A DNA stretch of 64,000 bases from Methylomicrobium sp. wino1 (GTDB lineage: Bacteria; Pseudomonadota; Gammaproteobacteria; Methylococcales; Methylomonadaceae), in assembly GCF_003932755.1 (NCBI RefSeq), contig NZ_CP024202.1:992001-1056000 (forward strand). Direction: 5' to 3'. The notes beneath the pieces are model-generated. The model made no database searches. It was not told the origin of the DNA and saw only the letters and a program-made list of their open reading frames with translations. This document shows positions 3,023 through 64,000 of the stretch, piece by piece (position 1 is the stretch's first letter; every line of letters starts with the position of its first letter). The translations under genes and the position numbers were made by a program.

Positions 3023-3852
3023 GTGTTTTTTCAGGAATTTTTCCCATTGCCATATTTCCCTTTCCGATTGATTTCAATCATCGTTTTCATTTCACTTATC
3101 CCGTTTGTTCATGCGGCCGAGCCCGCCGAAAAGGAAGCACTAGCTTCGATACTGCGTATTCCGATTTTGTTGTTCCATAGTCTGTTGCTCGACAGTTGCC
3201 AAAATTTGGGCAATTTACTGGAAGCCCATGTCGCGGCGGCACTGGCTTTACGCCTCGAGCACCGGCATGCGACAAAATAAAGCCTAACGGGAAACCGCGA
3301 TGAACGGCGATATGATCGAAAGCCTAATCATTTCGCACCAGCGCGCCGAACAGCACATCGAGGATTTGATCGCGATGGGCGGACTTGTCATGTGGCCGCT
3401 GCCGGCCGTTTCGCTGGTATTGTGGACATTGGTGTTGGAACGCTATTGGTATTTGCTGCGTGTCTTTCCCGCATATATCGAAAACAACCTCTCTTGCGCT
3501 CGCGTGCCGCTCCAAGGAAACCGGCCCCCAAAAAAACGCCATCGCCAAGCGTTCCGGCCCCTCGCATCGACATCCCTAAACATGGAGACGGACCTGAATT
3601 GGCTCCCGTGCCGGGAACCGATTCACGCGCGAACGCGGTATCGAAGGCTGGGTTCGCCTGGAAATCGTCGTGAAGCCGAATGGCACGGTCGGCGATGCCC
3701 GAGTCATCGATGCCAATCCGAAGCGAATTTTCGATCAGGCGGCCCTCGAAGCGATCCGGCGCTGGCGATTCAAACCGACATACAAGGACGGCCGCGCAGT
3801 CGAACAGCGAGTGGTTCAGGAAATCAGCTTTCGGCTCGATCGGCGGCGTTAA
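3023..3852 (+). pseudogene. remnant of a TtpC-ExbB-TonB operon with internal deletions
   Basis: Three gene fragments follow one another in different frames. 3023-3280 joins a signal-peptide-like start (ending FVHAA) to a tail, LLFHSLLLDSCQNLGNLLEAH, that resembles the TtpC C-terminus (the intact copy has LLFLHSLLAYRSRALIQILDE). From 3300, MNGDMIESL and GGLVMWPLPAVSLVLWTLVLE resemble the ExbB N-terminus and first helix. From about 3490 a proline-rich TonB linker reads in one frame, and from 3637 a TonB C-terminal domain (GIEGWVRLEIVVKPNGTVGD) reads in another. ExbD and most of ExbB and TtpC are missing. An intact operon of the same kind lies at 33561-38492. Confidence 0.72.
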
Positions 3853-4199
3853 TCGAGTATTCAATTCGCTAAGAAACAAGCTGAATGTAAATATTCAGTC
3901 CCCGCCTGGGGTCCCTAATCGCAAAGCGATTCGGGTTACATTTCTGGTTCCCACGGTCCTCCGTGGGAACCCATATCTTGGCTGTCGAGGCAAGACCGGT
4001 CTAGATTTCCACAGAGGGCAGAGTGCTCAACTTTATACACAAGTATCGGTAAACTTGCTAGACAGGTTATTAAACAGAGGTGAGATAAATAAACAGGAAT
4101 TGATGAGATAAATGGGTATAAAAAGGTGTTTAAAAGTATAAAACGGTAGGCGGAAAAAAAATTTGTTGCAGTATTTGCAACTAAATGAAGATCAGAATT
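3853..4199. other. intergenic region with short hairpins
   Basis: No gene was recognised. A perfect 10-bp hairpin, GTTCCCACGG at 3947-3956 with CCGTGGGAAC at 3961-3970, lies just after a smaller one (3917-3922 with 3926-3931). These look like REP-type dispersed repeats rather than a terminator, since no T run follows. Confidence 0.45.
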
Positions 4200-51207: not shown

Positions 51208-51837
51208 ATGTCTTTATTTCCTAAATTATTCCCGGCAATGATCGATGCCGTGGATGCCATCATCAAACAAAACTCAGAAGCAGTCACCGAATTGGATCAA
51301 GCGATTGGCGACGGCGATCATGTCACGAATTTACAACGCGGTATTAAGGCCCTAAAAGCAAAAGGCGAAGAAATATCGGCATTCGATTGGGCCGATGCCC
51401 TGCAGAACATCGGCATGATATCGATGTCGGCGATCGGAGGTGCGTCGGGGTCTTTGTATGGAACGCTATTCATCGCAATGAGTAAAGCGGCTAAGGGGCA
51501 AGAGTTGAGTGTATCGACTTTCGCCGAAGCTTTCGCGCAAGGTGTCGATGCGGTTAAGCGTAGAGGCAAGGCTGATGCCGGCGAGAAAACGATGCTCGAT
51601 GTTTATATACCGGTAGCCGATTGCTTGAAACAAGCGGAAGCCAATTCGACCCCATGGCCGGAAGTTTTAGAGCTGGTTTGCGATACCGCGAATCGGGGTA
51701 TGGAAGCGACACGCGACATGGTGGCGACCAAGGGCCGAGCATCGTTTTTGGGCGAGCGCTCGCGAGGGCATATCGACGCCGGAGCGAAAACCGCGCAACT
51801 CATGATTTGCGCGATCGCTTCCGTGTTACCCCAGTAA
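51208..51837 (+). CDS. dhaL: dihydroxyacetone kinase, ADP/ATP-binding subunit DhaL
   Basis: A 209-residue protein with the metal-binding aspartates Asp30, Asp35 and Asp37 (LDQAIGDGDHVTN), and nucleotide-binding GGASGSLYGTLF and GEKTMLDV. With DhaK it phosphorylates dihydroxyacetone to DHAP. It faces dhaK tail to tail, with three bases between, instead of forming an operon. No DhaM phosphotransfer subunit is seen, so whether ATP or a PTS protein is the donor is open. Confidence 0.93.
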   Translation: MSLFPKLFPAMIDAVDAIIKQNSEAVTELDQAIGDGDHVTNLQRGIKALKAKGEEISAFDWADALQNIGMISMSAIGGASGSLYGTLFIAMSKAAKGQELSVSTFAEAFAQGVDAVKRRGKADAGEKTMLDVYIPVADCLKQAEANSTPWPEVLELVCDTANRGMEATRDMVATKGRASFLGERSRGHIDAGAKTAQLMICAIASVLPQ

Positions 51838-51840
51838 CCT

Positions 51841-52830
51841 TTACATGCCCCAGCGTAATGCCGCGGTATGGACAGGCGCATCCCAAAGCTCTAATAGTTC
51901 CTCATCAAGCAAGCTTAAGGTGATGGAGCAGCCGGCCATGTCGAGTGAAGTCGTATAGTTGCCGACCAGTGAGCGCCGGATATCCACACCGCGTTTTTGC
52001 CAAAACCGGGCCGCTAAGTTGTAAATCAAATGTAGCTCGATCAGCGGCGTTGCTCCAAAGCCGTTGATATGCAACAGTACCGGTTGTTTTTTTTTGGGTT
52101 TCAATTCCTCATCAATCGCTGTCGAGAGTTGTTCGACGATCTCCGTGGCGGATTTGATCGGGATCGTTTCGTGCCCTCTTTCGCCGTGAATACCGACGCC
52201 CATTTCAATTTCATCATCGTTGATAGTAAAAGTCGGTTTACCAAGCGCCGGAACGGTGCAGCTCGTCATTGCCACGCCCATTGACGCGGTTGCTTCGTTC
52301 ACTCTTTCACCCAGGGTTTTACAGGCGGCTAAGTCCTTGCCGTTTTCGGCAGCCGCGCCGGCAATTTTTTCGACAATCAGTGTTCCGGCGACGCCTCGCC
52401 GTCCGGTGCTGTGATTTTTCGGCAGGGAAACGTCATCATTCACCAAGACAGTCGCATTCGAGCAATCGATCATTTCGGCGGCCATTTCGAAATTCATAAC
52501 ATCGCCCGCATAGTTTTTAACAATAAATAATACACCACCTCCGTTTTCAACCGCTTGCGCCGCTGCCATCATTTGATCCGGTGTTGGTGAAGTGAATATT
52601 TGTCCGGGACAAGCCGCATCAAGCATGCCGTGTCCGACAAAGCCCGAATGCAAGGGTTCATGACCGGAGCCGCCGCCTGAAATTAGCGCGACTTTACCGG
52701 ATTGTGTCGGTGTCTGGCGGCTGATGAAATGGGGTTCTTCATTAAAGCGGACGATATCGGCATGAGCCATGGCAAAGCCGGACAAGCTTTCGTCGAGCAG
52801 AGTGTCGACGCTGTTGATAAACTTTTTCAT
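51841..52830 (-). CDS. dhaK: dihydroxyacetone kinase, substrate-binding subunit DhaK
   Basis: A 329-residue protein. SGGGSGHEPLHSGFVG forms the dihydroxyacetone site and His215 in GVGIHGERG is the residue that binds the substrate covalently. HINGFGATPLIELHLIY is typical. Length fits DhaK of PTS-type or split ATP-type kinases. It is convergent with dhaL and upstream of the HAD phosphatase on the same strand. Confidence 0.95.
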   Translation of the reverse strand: MKKFINSVDTLLDESLSGFAMAHADIVRFNEEPHFISRQTPTQSGKVALISGGGSGHEPLHSGFVGHGMLDAACPGQIFTSPTPDQMMAAAQAVENGGGVLFIVKNYAGDVMNFEMAAEMIDCSNATVLVNDDVSLPKNHSTGRRGVAGTLIVEKIAGAAAENGKDLAACKTLGERVNEATASMGVAMTSCTVPALGKPTFTINDDEIEMGVGIHGERGHETIPIKSATEIVEQLSTAIDEELKPKKKQPVLLHINGFGATPLIELHLIYNLAARFWQKRGVDIRRSLVGNYTTSLDMAGCSITLSLLDEELLELWDAPVHTAALRWGM

Positions 52831-52906
52831 GTTCGGAACTCCTAAGTGATGATATTAAGGGTAGACCTTAGTACGTTGCCTGGCAAATCGGCTGACGATC
52901 GGATGA

Positions 52907-53725
52907 TTAAGATTTTTGTAAGGCCTGGGTAATCGCCCGGATGTCCGGCATGATCCAGGTAGGCTGAAAATCGGATACTTTTAAATCGTCTTCGGAAGAC
53001 ACGCCGGTCAGTACCATCAAACTACGGATATCGGCTCGCACCGCACCGAGGATATCGGTATCGAGGCGGTCGCCGATCGCAATGGTTTTGTTGGGTTCAG
53101 TTCCTAACAAGGTCATGGCTTGTTGATACATGATCGGTTCCGGCTTGCCGATGGTAAGTGGCTTAACACCGGTCGCGGCTTGTAAAGCCGCTAAAATGGC
53201 GCCATTGCCGATTGTCATACCCTGTTCGGTCGGTAATGAAGTGTCGGCATTGGTGCCGATGAATTTCGCACCGGCATGGAGAGTGTATGTCGCGTTGGCC
53301 AGTTTTTGCCAGGTGAGAGTTCGATCCAGTCCGCAAACCACGATGTCGGCATTTGCTTGAGTATTAACCGGATCAAAAGTATCGGTTAAAGTGAATCCAT
53401 GTTCGAGAAGCGGTGCGCGCGCGCCTTCTTCGCCAATTACGAAAATGCGGGTGGTGGTCGGGTCGAACTCCCGCGATAAATAAGAGGCGGTAGCCATGGC
53501 GGATGTCAGAATTTGTTCGGTGCCTATGAATACACCCATTCCGGCCAGTTTCGAAACATATTGTTCGGCAGTGAGTGTTGCGTTGTTAGTCGCCAAAATG
53601 AAACGTAAATGCTTAGCGCGCACTGTCTCAAAAAAATCAATAAGACCCGGAAGCGGTTGGGTGCCGTGCCATAAAACGCCATCCATATCAATGATCAGCG
53701 CCTGAATATCGGAAAAAGGTGACAT
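52907..53725 (-). CDS. NagD-like HAD phosphatase
   Basis: A 272-residue HAD protein of the class with a large cap: motif I IIDMDGVLWHG (Asp13 and Asp15), ATNNATLT, and IAIGDRLDTDILGAV. It matches the NagD/phosphoglycolate phosphatase group. Placed upstream of dhaK on the same strand, it might act on a glycolytic phosphate ester such as glycerol phosphate or phosphoglycolate; the substrate cannot be read from sequence. Confidence 0.85.
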   Translation of the reverse strand: MSPFSDIQALIIDMDGVLWHGTQPLPGLIDFFETVRAKHLRFILATNNATLTAEQYVSKLAGMGVFIGTEQILTSAMATASYLSREFDPTTTRIFVIGEEGARAPLLEHGFTLTDTFDPVNTQANADIVVCGLDRTLTWQKLANATYTLHAGAKFIGTNADTSLPTEQGMTIGNGAILAALQAATGVKPLTIGKPEPIMYQQAMTLLGTEPNKTIAIGDRLDTDILGAVRADIRSLMVLTGVSSEDDLKVSDFQPTWIMPDIRAITQALQKS

Positions 53726-54076: not shown

Positions 54077-54724
54077 ATGGCAAGACCATTAATACAAATG
54101 GCGTTGGACTCATTGGATTTCGATCAAACCGTTGCGCTTGCCGAGCAAGTGGCACCGTACGTAGATATTTTTGAGATTGGCACCCCATGCATCAAACACA
54201 ACGGGGTTGGCTTAGTGAAAGAACTGAGACAACGTTTCCCGGACCAACTGTTGTTGGTTGACCTGAAAACGATGGATGCCGGCGAATACGAAGCGGCGCC
54301 GTTCTACGCAGCGGGCGCGGACATCTGCACCGTGTTGGGCGTATCGGGTCTAGCCACTATCGGTGGTGTGATCAAAGCGGCGCGCACGCACAATGCCGAA
54401 GTGCAAGTCGACCTGATCAACGTGCCTGACAAAGTCGAGTGTGCACGCGAATCGGCGAAACTGGGCGCACAAATCGTCGGTGTACACACTGGCTTGGACG
54501 CACAAGCAGCTGGCCAAACGCCATTTGCCGACCTGCAAGCGATTGCCGATCTGGGCCTGAACGTACGCGTATCGGTAGCCGGCGGTATCAAACAAGCGAC
54601 AGTGCAACAAGTGGTTGCCAGCGGCGCGAGCATCATCGTGGTCGGTGCGGCGATTTACGGTGCGCCATCCCCGGCGGAAGCGGCTCGTGAAATCCGTCAA
54701 CTGGTTGATGCAGCGAGTGCATAA
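54077..54724 (+). CDS. hps: 3-hexulose-6-phosphate synthase, copy 1
   Basis: A 215-residue TIM-barrel enzyme that adds formaldehyde to ribulose-5-phosphate, the entry step of the RuMP cycle. The family motif DLKTMD (Asp62, Lys64, Asp67) is intact, with MALDSLDF at the start and VAGGIKQATV for phosphate binding. GGAGAAG precedes the ATG. The phi gene follows after three bases. Confidence 0.97.
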   Translation: MARPLIQMALDSLDFDQTVALAEQVAPYVDIFEIGTPCIKHNGVGLVKELRQRFPDQLLLVDLKTMDAGEYEAAPFYAAGADICTVLGVSGLATIGGVIKAARTHNAEVQVDLINVPDKVECARESAKLGAQIVGVHTGLDAQAAGQTPFADLQAIADLGLNVRVSVAGGIKQATVQQVVASGASIIVVGAAIYGAPSPAEAAREIRQLVDAASA

Positions 54725-54727
54725 GTC

Positions 54728-55261
54728 ATGCATCAGCAACTGATCATTGACAAAATATCCGGTATTCTGGCGGCGACCGACGACAGCTATGATCAAAAAC
54801 TGACCAACCTACTCGACCAAGCGAAACGCGTGTTCGTATCGGGCGCGGGTCGGTCGGGCTTGATCGGTCGGTTTTTTGCGATGCGCTTGATGCATAGCGG
54901 CTATGATGTCAGCGTGGTTGGCGAGATTGTCACGCCGAGCATCAAGGCGGGCGACCTGTTGATCATCATTTCAGGCTCGGGCGAAACCGAACAATTGATC
55001 GCGTTCACCAAGAAAGCGAAAGAAATCGGCGCCAAAATCCTGTTGATCTCGGCGAAAAGCGATTCGAGCATTGGAGATATGGCTGACGCGGTGTTCCAGG
55101 TTGGGACCTCGGAGCTGTATGGCAAAGTGAAAGGCATGCCGATGGGCACCGTATTCGAACTATCAACGCTGTTCTTCCTGGAAGCGATCATCTCACATAT
55201 CATTCATGAGAAAGGCATTCCGGAAGAAGAAATGAGATCGCGGCACGCGAACCTGGAATGA
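54728..55261 (+). CDS. phi: 6-phospho-3-hexuloisomerase, copy 1
   Basis: A 177-residue SIS-domain enzyme converting hexulose-6-phosphate to fructose-6-phosphate. Typical parts are VFVSGAGRSGLIGRFFAMRL, ISGSGETEQLI and HANLE at the end. It is coupled to hps; the pair works as a unit to fix formaldehyde. Confidence 0.97.
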   Translation: MHQQLIIDKISGILAATDDSYDQKLTNLLDQAKRVFVSGAGRSGLIGRFFAMRLMHSGYDVSVVGEIVTPSIKAGDLLIIISGSGETEQLIAFTKKAKEIGAKILLISAKSDSSIGDMADAVFQVGTSELYGKVKGMPMGTVFELSTLFFLEAIISHIIHEKGIPEEEMRSRHANLE

Positions 55262-55267
55262 GCCGAT

Positions 55268-55334
55268 GCGGAGCGATCCGCGCTGGAACAAACCAAAAAG
55301 CCGAATCGAACGAGTGGCGACCTGTCACTCGTTC
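55268..55334. other. two hairpins between phi and tkt, copy 1
   Basis: GCGGAGCGATCCGC (55268-55281) and a 9-bp stem GAACGAGTG/CACTCGTTC (55308-55316 with 55326-55334) lie in the 171-base gap. Neither has a T run, so mRNA processing or stability sites are more likely than a full terminator. Confidence 0.5.
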
Positions 55335-55432
55335 CAACCGAATTCCAACACAACAAAAGAAGTGACCGAGCCGCAAGGCTTTACCAAAACGAGTCACCGT
55401 TGTAACTTACCGAATTGACAAAGGAGAAGAAT

Positions 55433-57445
55433 ATGCCTTCGCGCCGAGACTTAGCGAACGCCATACGCGCTTTGAGCATGGATGCCGTCCAAAAAGCCAA
55501 CTCCGGACACCCGGGCGCACCGATGGGGATGGCGGATATCGCCGAGGTGTTGTGGAACGACTTTCTGCAGCATAACCCGACTAACCCGAACTGGGCCAAT
55601 CGAGACCGTTTTGTACTATCCAACGGACACGGCTCGATGCTGCTGTACTCGTTACTGCATCTGACAGGTTACCAGCTGCCGATCGACGAACTGAAACAAT
55701 TCCGTCAACTGCATTCAAAAACCCCGGGTCATCCGGAATACGGCTATGCGCCGGGCGTCGAAACGACGACCGGACCGTTAGGTCAAGGCGTCACCAATGC
55801 CGTGGGCTTTGCGATAGCCGAACGCGCACTAGCGGGTCAATTCAACCGTCCCGGGCACGAAATCGTCGACCATTACACCTACGCCTTCCTGGGCGACGGC
55901 TGTTTAATGGAAGGCATCTCGCATGAAGCCTGCTCATTGGCCGGCTCAATGAAACTGGGCAAACTGATTGCCGTCTACGACGACAATAACATCTCGATCG
56001 ACGGCGAAGTCCGCGGTCACGGCGACACGCCGGGCTGGTTCCTGGACGACACGCCGAAACGCTTCGAAGCCTACGGCTGGCACGTCATCCCGAAAGTAGA
56101 CGGCCATAACCCTGAAGCCGTCAAAAAAGCCTTGGAAGAAGCGCGTAGCGTCACCGACCGGCCGACATTGATCTGCTGCCAAACCATCATTGGCTGGGGC
56201 TCGCCGAACAAAGAAGGCAAGGAAGAATGTCATGGAGCGGCATTAGGCGAAGCCGAGATCGCGGCAACCCGCGAACGCATCGGCTGGCCGCATGCACCAT
56301 TCGAAATACCGGCGGACGTCTACGCGGGTTGGGATGCGAAAGGCAAAGGCGCGCGTCAAGAAGCGGACTGGAACGACAAATTCGCGAAATATAAAGCAGC
56401 GCATCCGGAACTGGCGGCCGAATTCGGACGCCGCATGAACGGACAACTGCCGAGCGACTGGTCGGAAAAGGCGAACGCCTTCATTGCCGCGGTCGACGCG
56501 AAAGGCGAAACCATCGCCAGCCGCAAAGCCTCGCAAAACACCCTGAACGGATTCGGACCGTTACTGCCCGAACTGATGGGCGGCTCGGCGGACTTGGCAG
56601 GCTCCAACTTGACCCTGTGGTCGGGTTGCAAAGACGTCAATGCGCCTGGGCACGACGGCAACTACGTCTACTACGGCGTACGCGAATTCGGCATGTCGGC
56701 GATCATGAACGGCATCACCCTGCACGGTGGGCTCAAACCGTACGGCGCGACCTTCCTGATGTTCTCCGAATACGCGCGGAATGCTTTGCGGATGGCGTCG
56801 TTGATGAAAATCCCGACCATCTTCGTATACACGCACGATTCGATAGGCCTCGGCGAAGACGGACCGACCCATCAACCGGTCGAGCAAACCGCGACCTTGC
56901 GGATGATCCCGAACATGCAAGTCTGGCGTCCATGCGATGCGGTCGAATCGGCGGTGTCGTGGAAAGCGGCGATTGAACGAAACGATGGGCCGAGCTGTCT
57001 GATTTTCTCACGGCAAAACCTAGCGCATATCGCCCGGACGCCGGCCCAAATCGAAGCCATCGGTAAAGGCGGCTACATCCTGAAAGACAGTGAAGGTCAG
57101 CCGGACGTGATCCTGATCGCGACGGGATCGGAAGTCGAATTGGCGGTGAAAGCAGCGGACGAGTTGAGCGGTAAAGGCAAAAAAGTTCGTGTGGTATCGA
57201 TGCCGTCAACCAACGTATTTGATGCGCAAGACGAAGCGTACCGCGAATCGGTATTGCCGAAAGCCGTCACGAAGCGCGTGGTCGTTGAAGCGGGCGTGAC
57301 CGACAGCTGGTGGAAATACGCGGGCACTCAAGGTTGCGTCATCGGAATGGATCGCTTTGGCGAATCGGCACCGGCCGGTGCGCTGTTCAAAGAGTTCGGC
57401 TTCACCGTTGACAATGTCGTCAAACACGTCGAAGCTCTGCTTTGA
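55433..57445 (+). CDS. tkt: transketolase, copy 1
   Basis: A 670-residue thiamine-diphosphate enzyme starting at ATG 55433 behind AAGGAG; a TTG 18 bases upstream is rejected. The cofactor site is [15 protein letters not shown] to DDNNISIDG (about residues 150-185), and the catalytic glutamate is in [12 protein letters not shown] (near residue 418). It moves two-carbon units in the sugar rearrangements that regenerate ribulose-5-phosphate. Use of formaldehyde as acceptor, making dihydroxyacetone, is a known side activity in yeasts but is not shown here. Confidence 0.97.
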
Positions 57446-57602
57446 TTCATTTTTAGCTAGTACCAGCAGAGTCTGGATAACAAAATGGTTTGCGGTGCCT
57501 TGAGGTCATTTAATCTCTCGGTATCCGCGATCCGATTAGGCTTCGTCGGCGGATTTTGCTGAACAGCTTCTTAAAAACAACGTATTGATGTGGTGTCCAC
57601 AA

Positions 57603-58958
57603 ATGAAAAATAATAATTGGCTGAATAGTTTATTAGGGATACTGCCGACCTTTTCTTCCGACGACTCGGTCGAGCTGAGTAGCGATGTTGTAGTGTCTGT
57701 CAGAAATTCCGAAGGGCCGACAGGAGTAGAGCGATATCTAAATAAAATCACTCCGGAAAAAACGGTTTCCGTGACGGGTGTTGCAAGATATCTTGAAAAG
57801 CACGATGTAAAGCCGGAAGCAGATATACCTCAAGAAATTGTTGTCGAGAAATTAGAGCCAGAGACATTGCCGGAAGAAATCGAATCCGGAGTATCTCGAT
57901 ATTTAACGAAAGTGAACGAGCGGGCCAAGGTTGAACCGGCAGTTACCGGGGTGGCTAAGTACCAAATGAGGCATGAGATACTGGATAAGCCCCGTGAGAT
58001 TGTAACCGGGGTAGCGAAATACCTGACTAAACAAGGATTTGAAGAAAAAAAGGTGCCGGTTAGAACCGGCGTCGAAAAATATGTCGCTAAGCAAGATTTA
58101 TTGGAAAATACTGAGGTGCCGTCAACAGGAGTCGCCAAATATTTATTGCGTCAGCAAATTGAAACGAGCCACTTGCCGCAAACGACTAAAGTTTCTAAAT
58201 ATATGACGCAGCAAGAACAAGCTGCGCGTCAAATACCGGCATTGACCGGTGTAACAAAATATCTCACCAAACAAATAGAGTTAGCCAAAAAATCCGCTCA
58301 ATTAACTGGAGTAGAGAAGTTCATTGATGAGCAGGATAAGGCGGAAAAAAGGCTGGCGGCGGAAAAAATTGTCGCAAGATATATTGAAGAAGCTCGATTA
58401 GCTGCAGAAAAAAAAGCAGTCGTTGCCACTGCGACTGAAACGACAGAGGAGTCGATTGAAAGTAAATTAGCGGCTATCAAAGAAATGGACGGAACGGGTG
58501 TGGATAAATATGTCGCGAGACGGACTATTTTAATTAGCCTGCAACCGCCGGTTACCGGCGTAGCAAAATATGCCGCTAAAAAATTAGCTAAGGAACATGG
58601 CGAGCCGGTTAAAACCGGCGTTGCCAGATATTTAGTAAAACAATATTTGGCTTCTTTGAATGCGCCGATAGTGACTAAGGTTGAAAAATATATAACAAAA
58701 AGAGAATTGTTAGCGTTGAGAGCGCCGGCGACGACTAGCGTAGATAAATATCTTGCTAAATCTTTATTATCTCGTAAAGACACGTTAAAAGTTTCCGGTG
58801 TATCCAAATATGTGAAAAATCACGCCTTGACTGATAATAAGGTACGTAACATAACTGGTGTTGCAAGATATATGATCAAGCAAATCGTAGCCCCAACTGC
58901 TGCCGAGCCGGTCATCGAGCTGACCGGCGTCGAAAAATATTTAAGGAATGCCGGTTAG
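57603..58958 (+). CDS. TGVxKY-repeat protein, soluble, next to RuMP cassette 1
   Basis: About 451 residues from ATG 57603 (an ATG at 57588 is possible; neither has a strong ribosome-binding site). Almost the whole protein is made of a motif TGV-x-(K/R)-Y-(L/V/M)-x-(K/R), seen in 18 clear copies and one weak copy (KIVARYIEE), spaced mostly 18-25 residues apart by charged, helix-prone linkers. Variants include SGVSRYL, TKVSKYM and TSVDKYL. There is no signal peptide or membrane helix, so it should be cytoplasmic. I do not know a named family. Repeated short motifs in charged linkers suit a scaffold binding many copies of one partner. Confidence 0.85.
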   Translation: MKNNNWLNSLLGILPTFSSDDSVELSSDVVVSVRNSEGPTGVERYLNKITPEKTVSVTGVARYLEKHDVKPEADIPQEIVVEKLEPETLPEEIESGVSRYLTKVNERAKVEPAVTGVAKYQMRHEILDKPREIVTGVAKYLTKQGFEEKKVPVRTGVEKYVAKQDLLENTEVPSTGVAKYLLRQQIETSHLPQTTKVSKYMTQQEQAARQIPALTGVTKYLTKQIELAKKSAQLTGVEKFIDEQDKAEKRLAAEKIVARYIEEARLAAEKKAVVATATETTEESIESKLAAIKEMDGTGVDKYVARRTILISLQPPVTGVAKYAAKKLAKEHGEPVKTGVARYLVKQYLASLNAPIVTKVEKYITKRELLALRAPATTSVDKYLAKSLLSRKDTLKVSGVSKYVKNHALTDNKVRNITGVARYMIKQIVAPTAAEPVIELTGVEKYLRNAG

Positions 58959-59263: not shown

Positions 59264-59911
59264 ATGGCAAGACCATTAATACAAATGGCGTTGGACTCAT
59301 TGGATTTCGATCAAACCGTTGCGCTTGCCGAGCAAGTGGCACCGTACGTAGATATTTTTGAGATTGGCACCCCATGCATCAAACACAACGGGGTTGGCTT
59401 AGTGAAAGAACTGAGACAACGTTTCCCGGACCAACTGTTGTTGGTTGACCTGAAAACGATGGATGCCGGCGAATACGAAGCGGCGCCGTTCTACGCAGCG
59501 GGCGCGGACATCTGCACCGTGTTGGGCGTATCGGGTCTAGCCACTATCGGTGGTGTGATCAAAGCGGCGCGCACGCACAATGCCGAAGTGCAAGTCGACC
59601 TGATCAACGTGCCTGACAAAGTCGAGTGTGCACGCGAATCGGCGAAACTGGGCGCACAAATCGTCGGTGTACACACTGGCTTGGACGCACAAGCAGCTGG
59701 CCAAACGCCATTTGCCGACCTGCAAGCGATTGCCGATCTGGGCCTGAACGTACGCGTATCGGTAGCCGGCGGTATCAAACAAGCGACAGTGCAACAAGTG
59801 GTTGCCAGCGGCGCGAGCATCATCGTGGTCGGTGCGGCGATTTACGGTGCGCCATCCCCGGCGGAAGCGGCTCGTGAAATCCGTCAACTGGTTGATGCAG
59901 CGAGTGCATAA
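59264..59911 (+). CDS. hps: 3-hexulose-6-phosphate synthase, copy 2
   Basis: 215 residues, the same protein as at 54077 with Asp62, Lys64 and Asp67 intact. It differs only in its upstream region: 16 bases before the ATG the sequence departs from copy 1, so expression may differ while the enzyme is the same. Confidence 0.97.
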   Translation: MARPLIQMALDSLDFDQTVALAEQVAPYVDIFEIGTPCIKHNGVGLVKELRQRFPDQLLLVDLKTMDAGEYEAAPFYAAGADICTVLGVSGLATIGGVIKAARTHNAEVQVDLINVPDKVECARESAKLGAQIVGVHTGLDAQAAGQTPFADLQAIADLGLNVRVSVAGGIKQATVQQVVASGASIIVVGAAIYGAPSPAEAAREIRQLVDAASA

Positions 59912-59914
59912 GTC

Positions 59915-60448
59915 ATGCATCAGCAACTGATCATTGACAAAATATCCGGTATTCTGGCGGCGACCGACGACAGCTATGATCAAAAACTGACCAACCTACT
60001 CGACCAAGCGAAACGCGTGTTCGTATCGGGCGCGGGTCGGTCGGGCTTGATCGGTCGGTTTTTTGCGATGCGCTTGATGCATAGCGGCTATGATGTCAGC
60101 GTGGTTGGCGAGATTGTCACGCCGAGCATCAAGGCGGGCGACCTGTTGATCATCATTTCAGGCTCGGGCGAAACCGAACAATTGATCGCGTTCACCAAGA
60201 AAGCGAAAGAAATCGGCGCCAAAATCCTGTTGATCTCGGCGAAAAGCGATTCGAGCATTGGAGATATGGCTGACGCGGTGTTCCAGGTTGGGACCTCGGA
60301 GCTGTATGGCAAAGTGAAAGGCATGCCGATGGGCACCGTATTCGAACTATCAACGCTGTTCTTCCTGGAAGCGATCATCTCACATATCATTCATGAGAAA
60401 GGCATTCCGGAAGAAGAAATGAGATCGCGGCACGCGAACCTGGAATGA
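59915..60448 (+). CDS. phi: 6-phospho-3-hexuloisomerase, copy 2
   Basis: 177 residues, the same protein as at 54728, three bases after hps. The SIS-domain residues in GAGRSGLIG and ISGSGETEQ are unchanged. Confidence 0.97.
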   Translation: MHQQLIIDKISGILAATDDSYDQKLTNLLDQAKRVFVSGAGRSGLIGRFFAMRLMHSGYDVSVVGEIVTPSIKAGDLLIIISGSGETEQLIAFTKKAKEIGAKILLISAKSDSSIGDMADAVFQVGTSELYGKVKGMPMGTVFELSTLFFLEAIISHIIHEKGIPEEEMRSRHANLE

Positions 60449-60454
60449 GCCGAT

Positions 60455-60521
60455 GCGGAGCGATCCGCGCTGGAACAAACCAAAAAGCCGAATCGAACGA
60501 GTGGCGACCTGTCACTCGTTC
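60455..60521. other. two hairpins between phi and tkt, copy 2
   Basis: The same two stems as in copy 1, preserved base for base in this non-coding gap. Confidence 0.5.
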
Positions 60522-60619
60522 CAACCGAATTCCAACACAACAAAAGAAGTGACCGAGCCGCAAGGCTTTACCAAAACGAGTCACCGTTGTAACTTACCGA
60601 ATTGACAAAGGAGAAGAAT

Positions 60620-62632
60620 ATGCCTTCGCGCCGAGACTTAGCGAACGCCATACGCGCTTTGAGCATGGATGCCGTCCAAAAAGCCAACTCCGGACACCCG
60701 GGCGCACCGATGGGGATGGCGGATATCGCCGAGGTGTTGTGGAACGACTTTCTGCAGCATAACCCGACTAACCCGAACTGGGCCAATCGAGACCGTTTTG
60801 TACTATCCAACGGACACGGCTCGATGCTGCTGTACTCGTTACTGCATCTGACAGGTTACCAGCTGCCGATCGACGAACTGAAACAATTCCGTCAACTGCA
60901 TTCAAAAACCCCGGGTCATCCGGAATACGGCTATGCGCCGGGCGTCGAAACGACGACCGGACCGTTAGGTCAAGGCGTCACCAATGCCGTGGGCTTTGCG
61001 ATAGCCGAACGCGCACTAGCGGGTCAATTCAACCGTCCCGGGCACGAAATCGTCGACCATTACACCTACGCCTTCCTGGGCGACGGCTGTTTAATGGAAG
61101 GCATCTCGCATGAAGCCTGCTCATTGGCCGGCTCAATGAAACTGGGCAAACTGATTGCCGTCTACGACGACAATAACATCTCGATCGACGGCGAAGTCCG
61201 CGGTCACGGCGACACGCCGGGCTGGTTCCTGGACGACACGCCGAAACGCTTCGAAGCCTACGGCTGGCACGTCATCCCGAAAGTAGACGGCCATAACCCT
61301 GAAGCCGTCAAAAAAGCCTTGGAAGAAGCGCGTAGCGTCACCGACCGGCCGACATTGATCTGCTGCCAAACCATCATTGGCTGGGGCTCGCCGAACAAAG
61401 AAGGCAAGGAAGAATGTCATGGAGCGGCATTAGGCGAAGCCGAGATCGCGGCAACCCGCGAACGCATCGGCTGGCCGCATGCACCATTCGAAATACCGGC
61501 GGACGTCTACGCGGGTTGGGATGCGAAAGGCAAAGGCGCGCGTCAAGAAGCGGACTGGAACGACAAATTCGCGAAATATAAAGCAGCGCATCCGGAACTG
61601 GCGGCCGAATTCGGACGCCGCATGAACGGACAACTGCCGAGCGACTGGTCGGAAAAGGCGAACGCCTTCATTGCCGCGGTCGACGCGAAAGGCGAAACCA
61701 TCGCCAGCCGCAAAGCCTCGCAAAACACCCTGAACGGATTCGGACCGTTACTGCCCGAACTGATGGGCGGCTCGGCGGACTTGGCAGGCTCCAACTTGAC
61801 CCTGTGGTCGGGTTGCAAAGACGTCAATGCGCCTGGGCACGACGGCAACTACGTCTACTACGGCGTACGCGAATTCGGCATGTCGGCGATCATGAACGGC
61901 ATCACCCTGCACGGTGGGCTCAAACCGTACGGCGCGACCTTCCTGATGTTCTCCGAATACGCGCGGAATGCTTTGCGGATGGCGTCGTTGATGAAAATCC
62001 CGACCATCTTCGTATACACGCACGATTCGATAGGCCTCGGCGAAGACGGACCGACCCATCAACCGGTCGAGCAAACCGCGACCTTGCGGATGATCCCGAA
62101 CATGCAAGTCTGGCGTCCATGCGATGCGGTCGAATCGGCGGTGTCGTGGAAAGCGGCGATTGAACGAAACGATGGGCCGAGCTGTCTGATTTTCTCACGG
62201 CAAAACCTAGCGCATATCGCCCGGACGCCGGCCCAAATCGAAGCCATCGGTAAAGGCGGCTACATCCTGAAAGACAGTGAAGGTCAGCCGGACGTGATCC
62301 TGATCGCGACGGGATCGGAAGTCGAATTGGCGGTGAAAGCAGCGGACGAGTTGAGCGGTAAAGGCAAAAAAGTTCGTGTGGTATCGATGCCGTCAACCAA
62401 CGTATTTGATGCGCAAGACGAAGCGTACCGCGAATCGGTATTGCCGAAAGCCGTCACGAAGCGCGTGGTCGTTGAAGCGGGCGTGACCGACAGCTGGTGG
62501 AAATACGCGGGCACTCAAGGTTGCGTCATCGGAATGGATCGCTTTGGCGAATCGGCACCGGCCGGTGCGCTGTTCAAAGAGTTCGGCTTCACCGTTGACA
62601 ATGTCGTCAAACACGTCGAAGCTCTGCTTTGA
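60620..62632 (+). CDS. tkt: transketolase, copy 2
   Basis: 670 residues starting at ATG 60620 behind AAGGAG, the same protein as at 55433. After its stop the sequence departs from copy 1 within two bases and leads into the second repeat-protein gene. Confidence 0.97.
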
Positions 62633-62737: not shown

Positions 62738-63409
62738 GTGAAAGTGAATACTATTACCATGGGTGCTTTAGCATCCTTGCTACTATCTAGCCCGATAGTT
62801 GGCGCTGAAGATAAATATCCGGCATCTGATTTTAAACCACAAGTTCAATATCAGGATGCTGACTATATCGCCAATACAGCGAAACAGCCTGCCAAGGCAG
62901 AAGCCGCTGCCAAAACGACAGAGTCCGACTCTCGTTATCCGGCGACCAATTTCGAGCCGAAAGTGGTTTATCAAGATAGCGAGTATAAGCATACAACGCC
63001 AAAAGTAGCGGCTCCAAGTGCAAAATCAAGCTCGTCGTCTATAAGTTCAAGTACTGATGTAGCAAGCGCCGAATCGGCGAATCTAGAAGCGAAATCGGAC
63101 AACACTCTAGTGATCATAGTCGCCGTATTAGCCGCTGTCGGTTTTCTAGTATTTAGAAGACGTTCAGGCGTTGCCACGTCAAGTGCGAGTGCTTCGGCTT
63201 ATTATCAAGATAACAGCGGAACGACCGGCGTTGCAAGATATCTCAACAAACTTGAAGGCTCTGCTGTAACTGGCGTCGCTAAATATTTGGAAAGACAAGC
63301 AGCTTCGGTACAAGAAAAAGTTGCGACTACTGGCGTCGATAAATATTTGGAAAAGAAAGAATTGGAATCGGAAACCGGCGTATCGAAATATCTTCGCACT
63401 AAAGGCTAA
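62738..63409 (+). CDS. membrane protein with cytoplasmic TGVxKY repeats
   Basis: 223 residues from GTG 62738, with AAAGGGG eight bases upstream. Order: signal peptide (1-22, ending IVGA); two periplasmic copies of a motif YPA-(S/T)-(D/N)-F-x-P-x-V-x-YQD-x-x-Y (about 26-44 and 68-87); a serine-rich linker; one membrane helix (about 122-140, TLVIIVAVLAAVGFLVF) followed by RRR, which puts the C-terminus in the cytoplasm; then four repeats TGVARYL, TGVAKYL, TGVDKYL and TGVSKYL. The tail motif is the same as in the protein at 57603, so this could be a membrane anchor for the same partner. Family not recognised. Confidence 0.85.
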   Translation: MKVNTITMGALASLLLSSPIVGAEDKYPASDFKPQVQYQDADYIANTAKQPAKAEAAAKTTESDSRYPATNFEPKVVYQDSEYKHTTPKVAAPSAKSSSSSISSSTDVASAESANLEAKSDNTLVIIVAVLAAVGFLVFRRRSGVATSSASASAYYQDNSGTTGVARYLNKLEGSAVTGVAKYLERQAASVQEKVATTGVDKYLEKKELESETGVSKYLRTKG

Positions 63410-63912
63410 GATAAACGGCACGTATCGAGCCGAGAGCCCTTGATCGCTTTATTTAAGCGATAGCATAAATCGATTATTGCGTTCATAGTGAGGTAATGGC
63501 TGTCCGGTGCTAGATGTCTCAACAATGAATACCGGATTGCTTGATTAAATTTGATCGAGCATTTCGGTATTTACCTATCGCACTTCAAATTTCGGCATTA
63601 GTGTATGGTGGTGCCGAAATTTGACTAACGAAAGGTTGTAGTGAAACAGTTGCTTTTCAGAACTATAATGATCAATTGTAAGCTAATCGACAATACATCG
63701 ATTAGATATAGTAAAATATAAGAACTTCAAAGGCGGGCCTGCTCAATGACAAAATGAGGGGGGCCGATTTCAATACAATATAAGCGACAAAAACATTGCC
63801 GCTTAATAAAGCTTCCACTCCCGATATTAGTCTCGGATATATCACACTCATCGCAGACAATAGTGATAGGTAAGCTTAAAGATAAATATAACAGCAAATA
63901 AAGGTGCACAAA
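63410..63912. other. 503-bp region before the transaldolase gene
   Basis: It holds a shortened family A repeat at 63571-63645 (TACCTATCGCACTTCAAATT, then CCGAAATTTGACTAACG) and an AT-rich stretch at 63650-63910 that probably includes the tal promoter. No gene is supported. Confidence 0.5.
63571..63645. repeat. dispersed repeat family A, deletion derivative
   Basis: Both ends of family A are kept (CGCACTTCAAATTTCGGCA and GCCGAAATTTGACTAACG) while the middle is reduced to about 15 bases, so the ends can pair as one hairpin. Confidence 0.6.
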
Positions 63913-64000
63913 ATGGCAAAAAACTTACTTGAACAACTTCGGGATATGACCGTAGTTGTCGCGGATACCGGCGACCTTCAGGCAATTGAAACTTACAAAC
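63913..64000 (+). CDS. tal: transaldolase, 5' end
   Basis: The gene starts at ATG 63913 and runs out of the window after 29 codons. MAKNLLEQLRDMTVVVADTG, then DLQAIETYK, matches the start of TalB-type transaldolases. Transaldolase is used in the RuMP cycle variant with sugar rearrangement by transaldolase, and it fits the hps-phi-tkt neighbours. Too little is visible to judge completeness. Confidence 0.82.
   Translation, partial: MAKNLLEQLRDMTVVVADTGDLQAIETYK

Follow-up and report, generated by a model that had tools for sequence, protein, structure and literature searches.

What is a protein made up almost wholly of one short motif doing between two copies of the genes for formaldehyde fixation? 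The question is raised by the window (the whole stretch of 64,000 nucleotides analysed, representing positions 992001-1056000 of a 5.06-Mb genome), in which such a protein is encoded at 57603-58958 on the forward strand. To our knowledge, how RuMP methylotrophs carry a large and toxic formaldehyde flux from the periplasm into the cytoplasm undamaged is an unsolved problem. A sequence-only reading of the locus had proposed that the motif array gathers RuMP enzymes, an interpretation that is supported in part by the analysis described here.

Motif proteins of the window and its genome

The array ORF (57585-58958, forward strand) is opened by a TTG; counted from the ATG at 57603, its product has 451 residues, in agreement with the earlier estimate of about 450. 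Its 18 clear copies and one weak copy of [TS]GVx[KR]Y were confirmed by pattern counts: the strict pattern TGVx[KR]Y matched 12 times and the loose pattern [TS][GKS][VI].[KR][YF] 18 times, against means of 0.0011 and 0.0176, respectively, and a maximum of 1 for both when its sequence was shuffled 10,000 times. The weak extra copy is KIVARY at residue 255. The motif array is thus a real feature of the protein. Its spacing, previously put at mostly 18-25 residues, proved to be sharper, with a step of exactly 20 residues throughout residues 95-235 and again throughout residues 298-418. For Thr, Gly, and Val of the motifs all four codons are in use, and given this synonymous variation the copies have not arisen by recent expansion.

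The chain starts with a hydrophobic peptide, MKNNNWLNSLLGILPTFSS (57603-57659), which may act as a membrane anchor. It is followed by a first motif block (residues 40-240; 57720-58322), in which predicted helices start at most motifs, by a long central helix from structure prediction that holds the weak KIVARY copy (residues 237-293; 58311-58481), and by a second block that runs from residue 298 through the C-terminus (58494-58958).

On the same strand, the array gene is flanked by two hps-phi-tkt copies, as had been read from the sequence before. The first consists of ORFs for hps (54077-54724), phi (54728-55261), and tkt (55415-57445); the second of ORFs for hps (59264-59911, encoding a protein identical to that of copy 1), phi (59915-60448), and tkt (60602-62632). 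The two blocks (54077-57445 and 59264-62632) have 3402 bp in common at 99.85% identity. Counted from its TTG, the array gene lies 140 bp from tkt. The start of tal occupies 63904-64000 (forward strand); the gene runs beyond the window end and is followed by fba, and in the extended genome stretch tal and fba were located at L011:9904-10899 and L011:11029-12111. The names hps, phi, tkt, and tal are those that we presume from the sequences. Upstream of hps, genes that we take to be DhaL/DhaK-like and HAD-like (51208-53725) have counterparts at the equivalent position in many relatives, among them three loci of a second family, f5.

A second motif protein of the window, overlooked in the sequence-only reading, is encoded at 62738-63409 (forward strand, 223 residues), 106 bp downstream of the second tkt. 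It has a signal peptide (recognized by eye), a single predicted transmembrane helix (residues 121-142; 63098-63163) followed by RRR, in line with positive-inside orientation, a presumed periplasmic part with two YPxxxFxPxVxYQD repeats, and, on the side predicted to be cytoplasmic, four motifs. This protein and the array protein each carry at least two copies of [TS][GS]Vx[KR]Y, by which the proposed RuMP-operon motif family was defined. Genes resembling the second one, hereafter the membrane form, adjoin RuMP genes in other genomes.

A third motif protein of the same genome is encoded outside the window (L012:5028-5921, i.e. 1584027-1584920, reverse strand). It carries three loose matches and a weaker copy, TRVERY, and its Cys/His C-terminus resembles a zinc site by eye; nothing over cut-off was found for it in Pfam and no RuMP genes were noticed beside it. 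A search of the 151 order genomes with this protein gave matches in 22 at E ≤ 1e-5, in some cases restricted to part of the sequence. The fused HPS-PHI locus of the genome is without a motif ORF nearby.

Run over the whole genome, a narrower motif pattern gave 16 forward and 4 reverse matches against 3 and 4 in the reversed control. The total for a broad pattern (20 forward, 5 reverse) was not above that control (16 and 20), and therefore only clusters of motifs were counted. A lone TGVSRYL in a 316-residue ORF that resembles cysteine synthase was taken as a chance match. As a separate observation, the ORF at 3300-3872 of the window starts ExbB-like (membrane) and then loses that character; judged by eye, it is possibly a broken gene.

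None of the searched libraries contains a name for the motif family. No family over cut-off was obtained for the array in Pfam or NCBIfam, and with PHROGs included the motif proteins gave only weak or sub-cut-off matches, such as a relative (L080) matching 'Diatom pyrenoid component 2' at 17.7 bits against a cut-off of 70. A search of the PDB up to E 10 returned one chance match (E 0.66), and plasmid records gave none at E ≤ 0.001. The string TGVxKY and four written-out motif strings were absent from the literature searched, which mostly excluded subscription papers.

Linkage to RuMP genes across genomes

The array protein was used as a query against genomes of its own family and order. At E ≤ 0.01, and with the own genome included, 106 of 121 family genomes and 97 of 151 order genomes matched. 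Among the 15 unmatched family genomes, eight carry HPS and seven carry neither array nor HPS; five of these seven are 65-85% complete, the others being G091 (95%) and G115 (91%). In six of the eight HPS-bearing genomes (G014, G047, G069, G073, G087, and G056, the last with one motif only) a membrane-form gene is present at the hps locus. In G006 the hps locus is cut by a contig end, and the only HPS found on the G004 contig is fused to PHI.

Following these searches, 61 motif-led loci from 60 genomes were compared, taken as the strong matches plus a spread of weaker ones rather than as a random draw. The motif ORF lies at most 466 bp from hps, phi, tkt, or tal in 53 of them, and these 53 RuMP-linked loci contain HPS (52), PHI (48), TKT (48), and TAL (43). 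The direct neighbor is often tkt in the own family and tal in family f5. The complete order hps-phi-tkt-membrane form-array-tal-fba was found in 14 loci from nine genera. Three further arrays are undecidable, being located at contig edges (L048, L062, L063), and five loci are without a RuMP gene in the stretch examined (L080, L083, L088, L089, L091). Homologues are thus mostly at RuMP genes and not away from them, the outcome on which the earlier proposal depended. In four of the five genomes the hps locus carries a membrane-form motif gene (L180-L183); the fifth genome is G552.

Several of the motif genes away from RuMP genes have features of their own. Two encode small four-motif proteins (L083:9527-9916 and L088:9660-10145), the former adjoining a gene for a SulP-type permease (PF00916), and two encode proteins with a transmembrane helix before most of eight motifs (L089:9480-10163 and L091:9575-10195).

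Similarly, 25 further loci were fetched by HPS. An ORF with at least two motifs was present in 14, and the membrane form at L166 has just one motif. The ten loci without a motif ORF comprise L163 (contig end), four of family f186, L175, L177, and three with fused HPS-PHI, among them that of the own genome. A genome of the same genus (G037) has the membrane form and no array at its RuMP locus, and Methylotuvimicrobium buryatense 5G was recognized as a relative in the contig scan. The locus L118 (G010) contains three hps-phi-tkt copies and two arrays identical in DNA.

In a class draw of 369 genomes, which reaches beyond the order, four were matched by the array query at E ≤ 0.001, half of them from the own genus and half from family f5 (at most four candidates scored per genome); HPS matched six at E ≤ 1e-20. 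A motif gene is present in all six HPS genomes, four being detected by the search and two by inspection of the locus: G256 and G280 have HPS without an array match, yet motif ORFs occur at their RuMP loci, with broken frames in G256. None of the 363 HPS-negative class genomes had an array match, an absence that holds for array-like proteins only, because the long query misses short motif proteins such as those of G256 and G280. In a phylum draw the query matched 1 of 398 genomes, i.e. the own genome. Homologues in non-methylotrophs, which would have spoken against the earlier proposal, were not encountered: every array match in the class (4/369) and phylum (1/398) draws carries hps, the spread sample not knowingly including Methylophilaceae, Bacillus, or actinobacterial RuMP organisms.

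Family f5, which is probably Methylophaga-like, has HPS in 50 of 57 genomes. Of 31 loci compared (one per genome: the best-scoring 30 HPS loci plus that of G122), 30 have hps and a motif ORF separated by 119-347 bp, the exception being at a contig end, and longer stretches (L096, L097, L179) show the order hps-motif-tal-hps-phi. The methane oxidation gene pmoA was found in 11 of 24 genomes tested across families and in none of the eight tested in f5. The reverse pattern occurs in family f3 (pmoA in 3/4, HPS in 0/4, no array match) and in G492 (f187) and G493 (f183), which have pmoA and neither HPS nor an array match. G490 and G494 carry HPS and motif genes with pmoA unmatched, in genomes that are 94% and 85% complete. 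The main exception is family f186: HPS was found in 4/4 and pmoA in 3/4, yet the surroundings of hps contain no motif ORF and the array query did not match; a motif ORF is missing also from G506 and from one of the HPS loci of G495. From these patterns, the link is with RuMP genes rather than with methane oxidation, and since f186, G506, and one G495 locus have HPS without a motif ORF nearby, the RuMP pathway works without the motif family. Only one HPS alignment column separates motif-linked from unlinked HPS, and so the partner cannot be read from HPS columns.

The motif proteins might instead be operon companions with a different structural function, such as the binding of a non-RuMP protein at the membrane. 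Family members away from RuMP genes, one with the Cys/His C-terminus and one beside the SulP-type permease, would fit such a role; the tight linkage to RuMP genes, recurring in several families, speaks against it, and we regard it as unlikely.

Motif conservation, predicted helices, and topology

A consensus of P-x-x-[TS]-[GS]-V-x-[KR]-Y-[LVMI]-x-[KRN]-Q was derived from 729 repeats in 101 motif ORFs, which include near-identical species. Val is present in 100% and Tyr in 99% of the repeats, values that are upper bounds because the search profile favors such repeats; the basic position is Lys in 67% and Arg in 28%. When 25 arrays were aligned, 23 columns proved invariant, and 20 of these hold a motif Val or Tyr; on average the commonest residue accounts for a share of 0.72 in the motif core vs 0.35 elsewhere. 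Between close species, and omitting the first 30 residues, substitutions in the core numbered 1/95 against 42/326 elsewhere in one pair (p = 1.8e-4) and 2/95 against 27/326 in a second (p = 0.038). That Val and Tyr hardly vary suggests that they fit a specific pocket of a partner protein. Spacing is conserved less widely. The step of 20 residues (160 of 363 spacings) is a habit of own-family arrays and not of the motif family as a whole, the commonest spacings being 17 in family f5 (51/86) and 15 in membrane forms (17/67). The highest number of motifs per chain is 21.

Lys and Tyr react with formaldehyde, and an array rich in such motifs, encoded in a formaldehyde-fixing operon, could be a chemical buffer that traps formaldehyde reversibly. 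The frequent replacement of Lys by Arg and the fact that the most conserved residue is the unreactive Val argue against this; moreover, a stoichiometric trap poorly suits a high-flux intermediate. We consider a buffering role very improbable.

The AlphaFold model of the array, made with 25 sequences, is of low confidence (pLDDT 61, pTM 0.25) and consists of separate short helices without a global fold. In this low-confidence model a helix is predicted to start one residue after the Thr/Ser in 15 of 18 motifs; in the other three it starts two residues after, three residues after, or not at all. The central helix (residues 237-293, 57 residues) is predicted as a single long and better-scored one, with pLDDT values of 79-93 in ten-residue blocks across residues 231-290, and is absent or shortened in 4 of 25 aligned arrays (L103, L104, L107, L115). 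The model of the membrane form, also of low confidence (pLDDT 58), has a helix at residues 121-142 and predicted helices directly after the Thr of each of its four motifs.

The predicted transmembrane helix is clear in the membrane form of the window, and the N-terminal peptide of the array is suggestive of an anchor. Of 26 membrane forms, 25 have a positive net charge over the twelve residues past the transmembrane helix and one has a net charge of zero; the presumed periplasmic part is conserved. Many of the N-termini of 25 motif proteins are hydrophobic or amphipathic, some weakly so, with moderate hydrophobic moments. Several array N-termini (e.g. L103, L107) resemble the end of the membrane-form transmembrane helix, and for this reason the array may derive from the membrane form. 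In the loci read outside the own family, a membrane protein is the usual form. The earlier description of a free cytoplasmic scaffold calls for revision: because membrane forms are usual and soluble arrays are hydrophobic at the N-terminus, a membrane tether seems likelier than a free scaffold.

The same features could mean that the motifs are amphipathic helices that bind membrane lipid instead of an enzyme, the proteins shaping or lining the inner or the intracytoplasmic membrane. Lys/Arg and Tyr are typical residues of the membrane interface and are present at the motif, and the family has a transmembrane helix or a hydrophobic N-terminus; three motif peptides had hydrophobic moments from 0.19 to 0.65. 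A near-invariant Val and Tyr would be needless for lipid binding, and the linkage found is to RuMP genes. Shaping of intracytoplasmic membrane was ranked second because family f5, in which none of eight genomes tested has pmoA, carries the motif gene beside hps. Altogether, lipid binding appears improbable.

Possible docking of RuMP enzymes and known systems

In our proposed explanation, to which we give an even chance, the motif proteins are multivalent, membrane-tethered docking strips that would hold RuMP enzymes where formaldehyde enters the cytoplasm. Each motif would form a short helix, predicted to be capped by Thr/Ser. One form would consist of a small periplasmic part, a single transmembrane helix, and a few motifs exposed to the cytoplasm; in the other, perhaps derived from it, a hydrophobic N-terminal peptide would precede as many as 21 motifs. 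With many copies per chain, a RuMP enzyme would be gathered at the inner membrane, at the entry site of the formaldehyde that periplasmic methanol oxidation yields, and the benefit may be that free formaldehyde is kept low. HPS is the likeliest partner because it is present at 52 of 53 RuMP-linked loci. In older work the HPS of Methylococcus capsulatus reportedly behaves as particulate, which was given no weight in this proposal.

Alternatively, the motifs might bind a RuMP enzyme or a regulator and alter activity or expression with formaldehyde or with the state of the membrane. Operon linkage agrees with such a regulator or sensor, and in the membrane form a signal from the periplasm could be sensed by the conserved periplasmic part. 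Since up to 21 copies per chain fit docking better, as does the lack of a signalling domain over cut-off in Pfam and NCBIfam, we give little credence to regulation. More tentatively, and with considerable doubt, the docking strips may build a natural, shell-less formaldehyde-fixing body, in which RuMP enzymes would be condensed by motif strips on the inner membrane while the periplasmic part faces the methanol dehydrogenase side, so that formaldehyde would be caught at entry.

Among the matches listed in the literature on RuMP with scaffolds, metabolons, or membranes, none described a motif protein, as judged by title or opening of the abstract. The duplicated RuMP genes of Methylococcus are described without a motif gene in the sections considered of two papers (PMC8527097, PMC517821). 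Proteomics in a further study, in its sections considered, was carried out on the soluble fraction only, and for this reason it is silent on membrane association (PMC6548844).

Engineered RuMP scaffolds (MDH-HPS-PHI assembled through an SH3 ligand, and linker fusions) have the same aim as the docking proposed here and are man-made; they keep the formaldehyde producer and the fixing enzymes together, and no natural bacterial RuMP scaffold is named in the sections considered of that source (PMC13001265). Engineers are thus building artificial scaffolds for the very formaldehyde step at which, according to our proposal, a natural one would operate (PMC13001265, same sections). The occurrence of the motif family in methanotrophs and in a family in which none of eight genomes tested has pmoA makes natural RuMP organization directly testable, and the motif could offer a ready-made docking tag.

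Three natural systems offer a comparison. CsoS2 is likewise long, built of repeats, and tied to carbon-fixation genes; it differs in having another motif and a shell, whereas the family described here has membrane-linked forms. No CsoS2 family was among the Pfam matches of the array up to E 1, which consisted of three weak sub-cut-off families, and the neighbors of the motif genes at this locus, on which the comparison with a Rubisco or shell context is based, comprise hps, phi, tkt, tal, and fba. EPYC1 and other Rubisco linkers carry short helical motifs on a largely disordered chain, as may hold for the array to judge by its low-confidence model; they serve algal Rubisco, in contrast to the bacterial RuMP genes at the present loci, and the array had no relative of solved structure in the PDB search. 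Finally, the SSUL units of CcmM place several enzyme-binding units on one chain, comparable to the motif copies if these do bind an enzyme; SSUL units are folded domains, whereas the units here are predicted to be short helices.
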